DNA of 64,000 bases, taken from NCBI RefSeq assembly GCF_024347675.1, contig NZ_AP024881.1, forward strand, positions 1,922,001-1,986,000, written 5' to 3'. This DNA is from Vibrio ishigakensis (lineage in GTDB: Bacteria > Pseudomonadota > Gammaproteobacteria > Enterobacterales > Vibrionaceae). The translations under genes were made by a program, and so were the position numbers. This document shows positions 50,929 to 53,685 of this stretch, one piece after another; positions within the stretch are counted from its first letter, which is position 1, and the number at the start of each line of letters is the position of its first letter. The notes beneath the pieces were generated by a model. The model worked only from the letters and a program-made list of their open reading frames with translations, was not told where the DNA came from and did not search any database.

Positions 50929-51450
50929 ATGTCTAAGCAGCAAGTGACGGCAACAGGGAACGTTGTTACCGAAAAGACTTCGAAAGCAAAATCAATACTG
51001 GGGAAGGTATGGCGATTTGTTTTCAAACTGATCAAGATTGCGCTGTTTTTGGCCTCAATCGCAGCGACCGCAAAATTTTTCTCTCTGCTATCTAATATCC
51101 ACGGTAAACAGATGCCGGCGGAAGAGTTCGTTAACGGCTACCCAACCATCATCAAGCTGATCAACTCCGAGCTGTTCATGGGACTGATCTTTGTGATCAC
51201 CCTAGGTATCTTCATCTATGTGGGTAAGCTTTTCTGGGACCTACACGAGATTGCGGTCCACGAGAGTCAGCACAAAAATAGCGCTCACACAACGCTAGTG
51301 TTCGCACTTTCTCTGTGTGGCCTATTTATCAACAAGACTTGGTGGGTTTTAGCTATTGTTATCGCCTTCACTCGCTGGGACATCATCGGCAAAAACATGA
51401 GTAAGATCATCAGCAACGGTGTGTCGAAACGCAAAGAGGAGCAAGCATAA
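50929..51450 (+). CDS. Inner membrane protein with an HlyD-type partner (YibI-like arrangement)
   Basis: Membrane protein of 173 residues with three or four hydrophobic segments (about 25-50, 78-100 and 118-145). It starts with MSKQQVTATGNVVTEK; the ATG at 50929 follows GGTGACAC. The next gene, overlapping by one base, is an HlyD-type adaptor, the same order as E. coli yibI-yibH, although I cannot confirm the family. Transport of some substrate across the membrane is suggested only by the neighbour. Confidence 0.6.
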   Translation: MSKQQVTATGNVVTEKTSKAKSILGKVWRFVFKLIKIALFLASIAATAKFFSLLSNIHGKQMPAEEFVNGYPTIIKLINSELFMGLIFVITLGIFIYVGKLFWDLHEIAVHESQHKNSAHTTLVFALSLCGLFINKTWWVLAIVIAFTRWDIIGKNMSKIISNGVSKRKEEQA

Positions 51451-52481
51451 TGAAAGAGATAATGCTGCCCTATATCCTGATCATTTGGATTCTTGTAAAG
51501 CTAGGCATCATAAAGTGGACTATGCGAAATGCAGTAATCTGTGTTGGTTTCGGTGCCTTCCTAGCCACATCGCTATTTACCGCTTCACGCTTTTGGGCAC
51601 CGGTAGACCTGACTGATAGTTCGACGGTAAAAGCCCCACAAGCAGTACTGAGCCCACTAGTAGGCCAAAAGATTGACCAGATCTTTGTTAAGCACAACCA
51701 AGAGGTCAAAAAAGGTGAGCTTATCTATACCTTGGTGAGCACAGATACCGATGAGCAGATCAAAAGCCTAGAGGCAAACATCAACGCCCTTGATCATCAG
51801 ATCAAAGCAATTGAAGAGCGTATCCAGAATGACCAACAAAACCTAGCTCGTCTAAAGAAGCTTGGTGAGTATGGCAGTGACATGGAGCGTGATGACCTTG
51901 AGTCGAAGATCCAACAAGGCTTTGCCGACATCCAAGCTAAGCAGGCTGAGAAGGCCTCGATTACCGCTCAAATCAAAGAAAACCAATGGCAGAGTTCACT
52001 TAACCAAATCGTTGCGCCATTTGACGGTGTAATCGGTGTGGTCAACATCAGTAACGGTTCACGCATGGGGAACATGCACATCTATGAAACCAAGAAGAAG
52101 TTCTTGGAGATGCGCATCAGCGACCAAGCCTTTACCTATATTAAGAAAGGCCAGTTTGCAGAGTTCTATGTAAACTCTCATCCAGGACACGTGTTTAGAG
52201 GCAAGGTTCACAGCATCACCTCAGGGACCGGTGAAGCGACGGTTTCCCCAAGACAAGGGACTCAAAACGTGACCCAGCACGTAGCGCAAAACGCCGGCTC
52301 CCATGGCCGTACCGTAGTCATCGAGTTTAAAGAGCCAAAAGGGATGACCATCCCAATCGGCGCAACAGGATCAGCTTGGATTTCAGCAGAGAAACCAGCT
52401 CCAATCCTTGGCTTCATGGATATCATAGGTGCTGCAACTGTGCGTCTAAAATCCCTAAAAGCGTACCTATCTGCACTGTAA
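51450..52481 (+). CDS. HlyD-family membrane fusion protein (YibH-like)
   Basis: Periplasmic adaptor of 343 residues. It has an N-terminal membrane anchor (about 5-22, 25-45), biotinyl-lipoyl-like half-motifs on both sides (TVKAPQAVLSPLVGQKIDQI about 60-80 and NQIVAPFDGVIG about 185-197), a coiled coil (about 95-170) and a beta-barrel region. Similar proteins act in EmrA-type or YibH-type export. Its only visible partner is the small membrane protein upstream; no exporter pump is seen. Confidence 0.82.
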   Translation: MKEIMLPYILIIWILVKLGIIKWTMRNAVICVGFGAFLATSLFTASRFWAPVDLTDSSTVKAPQAVLSPLVGQKIDQIFVKHNQEVKKGELIYTLVSTDTDEQIKSLEANINALDHQIKAIEERIQNDQQNLARLKKLGEYGSDMERDDLESKIQQGFADIQAKQAEKASITAQIKENQWQSSLNQIVAPFDGVIGVVNISNGSRMGNMHIYETKKKFLEMRISDQAFTYIKKGQFAEFYVNSHPGHVFRGKVHSITSGTGEATVSPRQGTQNVTQHVAQNAGSHGRTVVIEFKEPKGMTIPIGATGSAWISAEKPAPILGFMDIIGAATVRLKSLKAYLSAL

Positions 52482-52485
52482 ATAC

Positions 52486-52752
52486 TAGGGTCTGTTGACC
52501 TTTTGCGGTTGAATTTTGCTCGAGTCAGAAACGATTTAATCGCGGCGAGAACCTTGTAGCCTAGTCATCTAAGCAAAAGGGGCTCAACAAAGAGTAAATC
52601 GTTTCTGGCCGAGCCCTTCGGGTAGCGTTTGTTGGGCATTTCTACCGCGTTAGACACTTTTCATGTAGAACCACTACACCCAAAAGCGTCTGCCTTGTAT
52701 AAATACCCAACAATTCGCTACAAAAACAAACTCAAAAGGTCAACAGACCCTA
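52486..52752. mobile_element. MITE-like element with 19-bp terminal inverted repeats
   Basis: TAGGGTCTGTTGACCTTTT (52486-52504) is repeated exactly in inverse orientation at 52734-52752. If TA is the duplicated target, the element itself is 263 bp (52488-52750). Inside, two imperfect inverted repeats form large hairpins: 52518-52538 with 52595-52614 and 52623-52642 with 52700-52719. No coding capacity of note. It sits 5 bases past the YibH-like stop and just before its terminator. The TA flanks suggest an IS630/Tc1-type transposase mobilised it; that enzyme is not in the window. Confidence 0.8.
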
Positions 52753-52753
52753 A

Positions 52754-52779
52754 CAACCCAGCCTAGGCTGGGTTTTATT
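52754..52779 (+). terminator. Terminator beyond the MITE-like element
   Basis: AACCCAGCC and GGCTGGGTT form a stem around TA, followed on the plus strand by TTATTATTT. It would originally end the YibH-like transcript and is now separated from it by the 263-bp element. It ends only 4 bases before the converging LysR stop. Confidence 0.85.
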
Positions 52780-52782
52780 ATT

Positions 52783-53685
52783 TTAGCTTGCGATACTCAC
52801 TGTAGCACGATAATCCTGCTTACTGGCTATCTCTAATGCTTGACTAATCCACTGACAAAACGGCCTAGTTCGCGCATCCAACTGCCAACTCAGCACCAAA
52901 CCTTTACTCACCTTTGGAAGAAAACGGGAATTCAGCACTCGTAACGAGTCATACTGAGAAAGGGAGTCCAAAGCGTTTCTCGGGATACAGGCAATGTTTG
53001 AATTCGAGTGACACATCTGAAACAGAGTGACCACGTCATCTACCCACCATACTGAAGCAAAATCAGTAATCGATTTGAGCAGATCAGAATTGAACTGCGG
53101 CGGTATTAGATAACGATAAGTAGACAACTCAAACAGCTCTTGCGCCTTGTTGATTCGCTTAGCGTTTTCTTCTGTCGCCACCCAAACATTCTCTGCTACC
53201 CCTATGCTCTCGGTATGGAACTCAGAAGCTGGAAGAAAATCATCACAGCCACCAATTACGATATCGAGATCATGGGCGCTTAGAAGGTCGTTTAAGGTCT
53301 TACTGTCACGATAGATAAGGTATACCTCAACTGAAGGAAAGGTAGCCTCAAAATCTTGCACAAGACGGGTGATATTTCTCGGAGAAAGAAGCGGGTCTAT
53401 ACCGATTCTAACTTGTTGTTTTTGATTATGTTTTAGCTGCTCTGCTTGCTGCATAAATCTAGCATGCTGCGCCTTCACCATGCGCGCCTGCTTTAAAAGA
53501 GCTTCGCCGTTATCATTAAGGGAAATGAAGCGACCATTTCGAGTGAACAGGTCGTACCCTAAATCAATTTCTAAATTATGTATCAACTGACTAACCGCCG
53601 ATTGGCTTTTACCCAGTTTCTTTGCTGCGATACTAAAAGAGTTGTGTTCGGCGGCTAAAATAAATGCTTCAATCGCTTCGATCAT
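52783..53685 (-). CDS. LysR-family transcriptional regulator
   Basis: Regulator of 300 residues. The winged-helix N-terminal domain (about 1-60) reads MIEAIEAFILAAEHNSFSIAAKKLGKSQSAVSQLIHNLEIDLG, the usual LysR pattern, and a periplasmic-binding-protein-like effector domain follows (about 90-295). No divergent target gene is adjacent; the next leftward gene is the O-antigen-ligase-like protein, 287 bases away. Its function is therefore open. Confidence 0.88.
   Translation of the reverse strand: MIEAIEAFILAAEHNSFSIAAKKLGKSQSAVSQLIHNLEIDLGYDLFTRNGRFISLNDNGEALLKQARMVKAQHARFMQQAEQLKHNQKQQVRIGIDPLLSPRNITRLVQDFEATFPSVEVYLIYRDSKTLNDLLSAHDLDIVIGGCDDFLPASEFHTESIGVAENVWVATEENAKRINKAQELFELSTYRYLIPPQFNSDLLKSITDFASVWWVDDVVTLFQMCHSNSNIACIPRNALDSLSQYDSLRVLNSRFLPKVSKGLVLSWQLDARTRPFCQWISQALEIASKQDYRATVSIAS

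Follow-up and report, generated by a model that had tools for sequence, protein, structure and literature searches.

MITEs are non-autonomous mobile elements whose interior is usually derived from the partner insertion sequence (IS) by internal deletion. REPINs are inverted REP doublets that form hairpins and make up one mobile, non-coding unit; their REP units are shorter than the arms described below and depend on a Y1 (RAYT) transposase. REPINs are also named in PMC3189936, which describes MITEPsy1 of Pseudomonas syringae, an element that inserts at CTAG or YTAA and whose transposition has been trapped in vivo. ERIC sequences are 127-bp intergenic palindromes of Enterobacteriaceae and Vibrionaceae (PMC10969869 and PMC2759123), and elements with unrelated interiors are also called MITEs (PMC6382973).

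With ISSod6 and its IS5-family relatives (NF033580), the element reported here shares the terminal sequence GGGTCTGTTGA(T/C)CTTT, TA flanks and a Y-TA-R context, but these IS are about 880–890 bp long and encode a 253-aa transposase, whereas the element is non-coding. As in a REPIN, two structured units stand inverted in one non-coding mobile unit, although the element is bounded by ends that match IS5-type repeats, in contrast to the short, RAYT-dependent units of REPINs. ERIC sequences, which also occur in Vibrionaceae, resemble it in being MITE-like intergenic repeats that are structured and non-coding, and are set apart from it by length and sequence, on description rather than alignment. 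The ERIC architecture probably differs from that of the element as well. MITEPsy1 is, like the element, non-autonomous with IS5-family-like terminal repeats, but it is 100 nt long with a 4-nt duplication, and the available text of PMC3189936 mentions no structured core of this kind.

The window analyzed here is a 64,000-nucleotide stretch of the Vibrio ishigakensis genome, and all coordinates refer to it. The element occupies positions 52486–52752 (267 bp including TA, with TA flanks) and, with its surroundings, has the following parts:

51450–52481, forward strand: upstream gene for an HlyD-type membrane-fusion protein, its stop codon lying 4 nt upstream of the element
52486–52505, forward strand: left terminal inverted repeat including the target-site TA, perfect over 20 bp, with ends matching ISSod6-type IS
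52518–52614, forward strand as its inward-reading strand: hairpin arm 1, with outer stem, internal loop, inner stem and apical hairpin (borders taken from the structure map)
52615–52621, no strand assigned: central CCC-loop-GGG hairpin, from the fold and the structure map
52622–52721, reverse strand as its inward-reading strand: hairpin arm 2, the inverted homologue of arm 1
52733–52752, reverse strand: right terminal inverted repeat with TA, with ends matching ISSod6-type IS
52755–52774, forward strand: terminator-like hairpin followed by a T-rich tail, starting 3 nt after the element
52783–53685, reverse strand: convergent gene for a LysR-family regulator, a neighbor outside the element

The perfect part of the terminal repeats, given as 19 bp in an earlier sequence-only reading of this DNA, spans 20 bp counting the TA and 18 bp without it, lies where that reading placed it, and forms part of a 31-nt pair of arms with 87% complementarity. 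The two long internal inverted repeats of that reading were both recovered, at 52526–52607 (52526–52541 with 52592–52607) and 52629–52713 (52629–52645 with 52697–52713), and a third, small hairpin (52615–52621) lies between them. The predicted RNA fold of the element has an energy of -118.1 kcal/mol against a shuffle mean of -62.4 (sd 4.3; z -12.8), a value reached by none of 200 shuffles, and the DNA fold gives a z of -11.5. Within the element, no ORF of at least 90 aa is listed, in agreement with the non-coding content described earlier, and no promoter-like site was found. The layout agrees with the proposal that the element separates a gene from its terminator, here a putative one predicted as a hairpin with a T-rich tail; in an 801-base region, three terminator-like sites were found against 1.0 expected. 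One point absent from the sequence-only reading is the inverted homology of the two hairpins. Across 35 elements, arm 2 scores on average 17.2 against inverted arm 1, compared with 9.6 for shuffled and 9.9 for direct comparisons, and because the two hairpins are inverted homologues, its own model recognizes the whole element on either strand, with scores of 230.6 and 204.5 bits.

The element is a MITE, a non-autonomous mobile element, as had been proposed together with the expectation of dispersed near-identical copies, TA flanks, an empty site in a close relative and a full IS with the same ends. Its own genome (4.79 Mb, two contigs) contains eight full-length copies at 94–100% identity along with four partial ones. 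Matches were found in 27 of the 61 genomes searched, from 5 of 25 genera, and in 13 of 72,556 plasmid records (seven Pseudoalteromonas, four Vibrio and two Catenovulum). A total of 93 copies were read, comprising 33 loci from genome searches and 60 stretches picked from the match list, and were reduced to 85 non-redundant insertions by removing identical left flanks. TA is present at both ends of 71 of these 85 insertions, and 72 show the Y-TA-R context. For a sister insertion filled in genome G018, six of 12 genomes searched (G005, G006, G011, G017, G024 and G027) read across the empty joint, with differences of a few bases there, so that the joint is not letter-perfect. When the flanks of the window copy were joined and searched against 118 genomes, 32 gave matches; outside its own genome no listed place spans both flanks, so these matches were discarded as evidence, and no syntenic empty site was found among the 118. 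The empty-site expectation therefore holds for one sister copy in related species but was not borne out among these genomes for the window copy, while the copies, the TA flanks and the matching IS described below agree with the proposal. Being short, non-coding and repeated, with a TA target duplication, a sister empty site and an IS with matching ends, the element is well described by the MITE reading.

By sequence match, the ends of the window element are ISSod6-type IS5-family ends. Genome G011 carries four 887-bp elements (with TA) that have the ends TAGGGCGTGTTGATCTTT and encode a 253-aa IS5-family transposase with Pfam domains PF13340 and PF01609 and an NCBIfam NF033580 score of 261 bits (cut-off 110). 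ISSod6 itself, from the Shewanella oneidensis megaplasmid, scores 279 bits against NF033580 and ends in TAGGGTCTGTTGATCTTT; the expected full IS with the same ends thus exists in four copies in G011 and also as ISSod6 and others. Both ends lie within three mismatches of the element ends in 34 of 37 IS loci, these 37 having been used out of 80 fetched from named genomes, and both element ends resemble the left IS end for about 35 bp. The partner IS is usually not resident, since an ISSod6-type transposase (E≤1e-30) is intact in only one of 41 genus genomes while exact copies of the end sequence occur in 26 of the 41; remnants were seen internally deleted in one genome and as a fragment in another. 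No ISSod6-type transposase was matched in the element's own genome, and without a resident enzyme the element would probably be mobilized by an IS passing through the genome, such as one carried on a plasmid.

Beyond the ends, nothing detectable is shared between the interior of the element and these IS. The interior does not fit an origin by internal deletion of the IS, with only the ends matching, and model matches were absent from 30 of 31 IS loci; in the 31st (L239) the match is to a separate core that is interrupted by an IS.

As judged by covariance models, the interior is instead a distinct family of about 268 nt in which two inverted homologous arms surround a small central hairpin. 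The first model was built from a MAFFT alignment (A1) of 26 Vibrio-type and related sequences, chosen from 30 copies below 93% identity after omission of four with extra insertions. It matched 46 of 369 genomes of the class, in 40 of 272 genera, and most of the listed matches are full length at about 268 nt. A second model, built from a broader alignment (A3), matched 139 of 398 genomes of the phylum, in 68 of 212 genera; counted from the list, 85 of the 139 are labeled with the same phylum only, and 55 of those fall in family f223. Letter-by-letter reading covered 24 phylum loci, including 12 outside the class that all belong to f223. Full-length core matches are also carried by plasmids of Azotobacter, Pseudomonas aeruginosa and Halomonas, and a Methylophaga plasmid has a partial match. 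E-values from these covariance models are rough, and in a control set of 205,816 bases (the window, 31 IS loci, four plasmid IS loci and 10 viral loci) the second model found the window element, one L239 copy and a 6.6-bit noise match, and nothing else. The "two-hairpin interior" noted earlier is therefore more than the decoration of a Vibrio MITE, being a structured core that is conserved well outside the genus and bounded there by several kinds of terminal repeat. The MITE assignment stands, with the missing local transposase and the wide spread of the core lying outside that reading.

Searches of known families returned no counterpart of the core. Rfam 15 gave no match to the window (the best hit below threshold scored 20.3 bits against 119) and no core match in seven further loci, where the sole above-threshold match is an unrelated tRNA in L413. 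No description of the element was found by words or sequence strings in the open-access literature. Annotated phage records gave no link to phage, and ten viral contigs that share one loop string were rejected as carriers; these string matches are attributable to chance because none of the ten matches the models.

Changes in the core follow its predicted pairing. Of the 106 pairs in A1, 53 have changed at both partners; shuffled alignments average 29.8 such pairs (sd 2.7), and sliding the structure leaves 20–26. A3 (35 loci in 66 rows, with 31 loci matching on both strands) gave a covariation score of 0.789 against 0.198 shuffled and 0.045–0.130 slid, with 89.1% of cells paired against 57.3%, and A4 (25 other loci in 50 rows) gave 0.673 against 0.175 shuffled; both alignments were made to the model, which favors its structure, and both include related rows and both strands of loci. 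The number of pairs altered on both sides is a less telling count in these sets (A3, 100 against 88.9 shuffled; A4, 92 against 78.1). In A1, conservation is no higher in unpaired interior columns (79%) than in paired columns (84%), and in recent copies the loops carry 161 changes over 60 columns against 247 over 212 in the stems, or about 2.3 times as many per column, which indicates constraint on the stems. Loop motifs recur as well: of 106 sense arms, 60 contain a spaced CAAGGC..AACGC, where shuffling predicts 0.1, and as a plain count CCC..GGG stands at the center in 51 of 53. This enrichment is support rather than proof, since the models that found the sequences favor such letters.

The kinds of mismatch within stems bear on which strand folds. 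Using only columns whose commonest pair is Watson-Crick, 35 rows contain 57 G-T and 26 A-C mismatches in arm 1, and 28 G-T and 51 A-C in arm 2 (Fisher p 4e-5, per-row p 3e-4). A hold-out of 25 further loci gave G-T/A-C counts of 30/14 in arm 1 and 12/16 in arm 2 (Fisher p 0.050, per-row p 0.034); all these p values are optimistic because the rows are related. The signal emerges only when the arms are separated, as pooling cancels the opposite signs (69 G-T against 51 A-C with both arms pooled, and 42 against 50 in recent copies). The asymmetry suggests that folding takes place on the inward-reading strand in both arms, a result that is marginal in the hold-out.

These data also bear on whether the interior does anything at all. 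In an ordinary MITE with a functionless interior, the arms could stay complementary through hairpin correction during replication (template switching), which would mimic compensatory change. The own-genome copies, with five paired double changes beside 15 single changes, are compatible with such a process, as are the similar pooled G-T and A-C counts and the deletions that palindromes suffer, here seen as partial copies, 55-bp elements and 17-bp footprints. However, copying from arm to arm should erase mismatched internal loops, whose motifs recur across the phylum; the G-T/A-C asymmetry flips sign between the arms, weakly so in the hold-out; and loops that change roughly twice as fast as stems in recent copies argue that the stems are held. 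We therefore consider a functionless interior unlikely.

A resemblance to integron attC sites was also considered. The stems of attC sites are free to vary as long as the fold and a small number of loop bases are kept; the arms behave similarly, with one strand apparently folded. Yet of 120 sense arms only 3 contain the attC core, GTTRRRY ... RYYYAAC, compared with none of 120 shuffled arms, on which ground attC sites were rejected, and it is very improbable that the arms are attC-type recombination sites or other structure-read DNA sites.

Related cores do not always carry ISSod6-type ends. Other terminal repeats found in relatives include TAGGGCCTGTTAACACTA, TAGGGGGCGTTCTCAATTA, AAGGAAGCTCTGATC, AGGAACCTCTGGTTAAT, ACTAACCCGAACACTGG, CTAAGCCGAACCATG, TAGTACTCTTTCAAGG and further ones. 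Loci L354 and L362 are 85% identical in the core and 55% and 60% at the ends, and L350 and L362 are 83% identical in the core and 50% and 45% at the ends. Ends of the form TAGGG(C/T)(G/C)TGTTAAC also bound IS5-family elements of 809–828 bp in all four plasmid loci opened, out of nine plasmid records. In Psychromonas sp. MB-3u-54 (L239, 302–640), a core has the ends GTTATACCCATGTTACTTCAAGATGC, unrelated to the ISSod6 type, and an ISSod6-like IS is inserted inside its second arm. An autonomous IS with the ends TAGTACTCTTTCAAGG was sought in two genomes, but every locus fetched proved to be a copy of the element, a deletion variant or ordinary flanking sequence. Exchange of ends between cores is the simplest reading of these comparisons, and for TAGGG-like ends the joint divergence of IS and passenger could also account for the pattern.

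The element is thus probably a passenger with ISSod6-type ends, moved in trans by IS5-type transposases, with a core kept by selection on its structure. An ISSod6-type transposase acting in trans would recognize the ends and insert the element at Y-TA-R with TA, as the ends and target sites suggest, and the transposase would probably be supplied by a visiting IS, for example a plasmid-borne one. Selection would act on how the inward-reading strand of either arm folds when single-stranded, be it as RNA or as DNA during replication or transposition. The inverted arms would present the same 5' hairpin whichever strand is read, so that the element would work in either orientation. The core could stay mobile over long times by joining up with the ends of one insertion sequence after another, and it may contribute something that depends on single-stranded hairpins.

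Relative to neighboring genes, 85 insertions show no orientation bias (27 --, 21 ++, 20 +-, 16 -+ and one one-sided), which is what a two-faced element would allow. The same result led us to reject a 3'-UTR function as judged by orientation. More broadly, the host might make use of the core as a non-coding RNA gene or a 3'-UTR regulator brought in by the transposon, as its very stable fold, its deep covariation and its frequent position near gene ends would fit. At 12 of 89 adjacent gene 3' ends the gene stops at the first three bases of the element, TAG (for example L002, L004 and L013), a count that rests on heuristic ORF calls; where the target site is a stop codon, the inserted element would restore one. 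Nevertheless, the unbiased insertions, two arms of opposite sense, the lack of an Rfam family at threshold and the lack of a promoter-like site within the element make such host use improbable.

For the passenger element favored here, a role of the core in its own spread is more likely than service to the host, because the core is patchy between related genomes and unoriented. A more far-reaching version, which we put forward only tentatively and hold to be somewhat doubtful, is that the core is a distinct kind of selfish structured nucleic acid, a parasite of IS that has lasted for very long periods because it adopts the ends of whichever IS is active, with two inverted arms read as single-stranded hairpins by a host or transposition factor conserved across the phylum. 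MITEs are usually regarded as two dead ends joined by filler. In this family it is the filler that is conserved, with stems that covary across many genera, and the transposon ends that change. If the passenger reading is correct, the element would represent a non-coding passenger under structural selection independent of any single transposase and would provide a readily traceable family of markers, and the question of why many bacterial MITEs fold so well would become directly testable.

Reduced and altered forms of the element were also observed. A one-sided polarity of truncation was considered for the four partial copies in its own genome, all of which keep the right end, and was rejected: outside this genome, some partial matches are left ends, and others are arm-deleted variants or lie at contig edges. 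Footprints of 17 bp, TAGGTCAACAGACCCTA, are exact at G000:C1:1781384-1781400 and G000:C2:530118-530134 and resemble the scars that would be left if the element were deleted between the short repeats that lie at its hairpin foot; with three mismatches allowed, the pattern occurs at 50 sites (element ends included) against 14 for a reversed control. Micro-elements of 55 bp that consist of the two ends only are located at Y-TA-R sites in L107 (501–555, G024) and L108 (501–555, G019), and similar ones in L283 and L284. In L106 (501–2581, G030), about 2.1 kb between matching ends contains ordinary ORFs, histidine-phosphatase-like and racemase-like by eye, and is perhaps cargo between element remnants.

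Other variants differ within the core. In a group of Vibrio loci (L136, L144–L147, L161 and L266–L268), some variants have direct repeats like GGGGRCGCCYAG beside arm 1, and others lack arm 1 and keep one such repeat, so arm 1 may be gained or lost as a unit. An extra stretch resembling CCAACAGTAGGCGCTTTAGGCG is found at CAA|GGC or CAA|CGCC internal-loop sites in L384, L391, L402 and L408 (G205 and G337), and some of these copies have it on each side of an arm.
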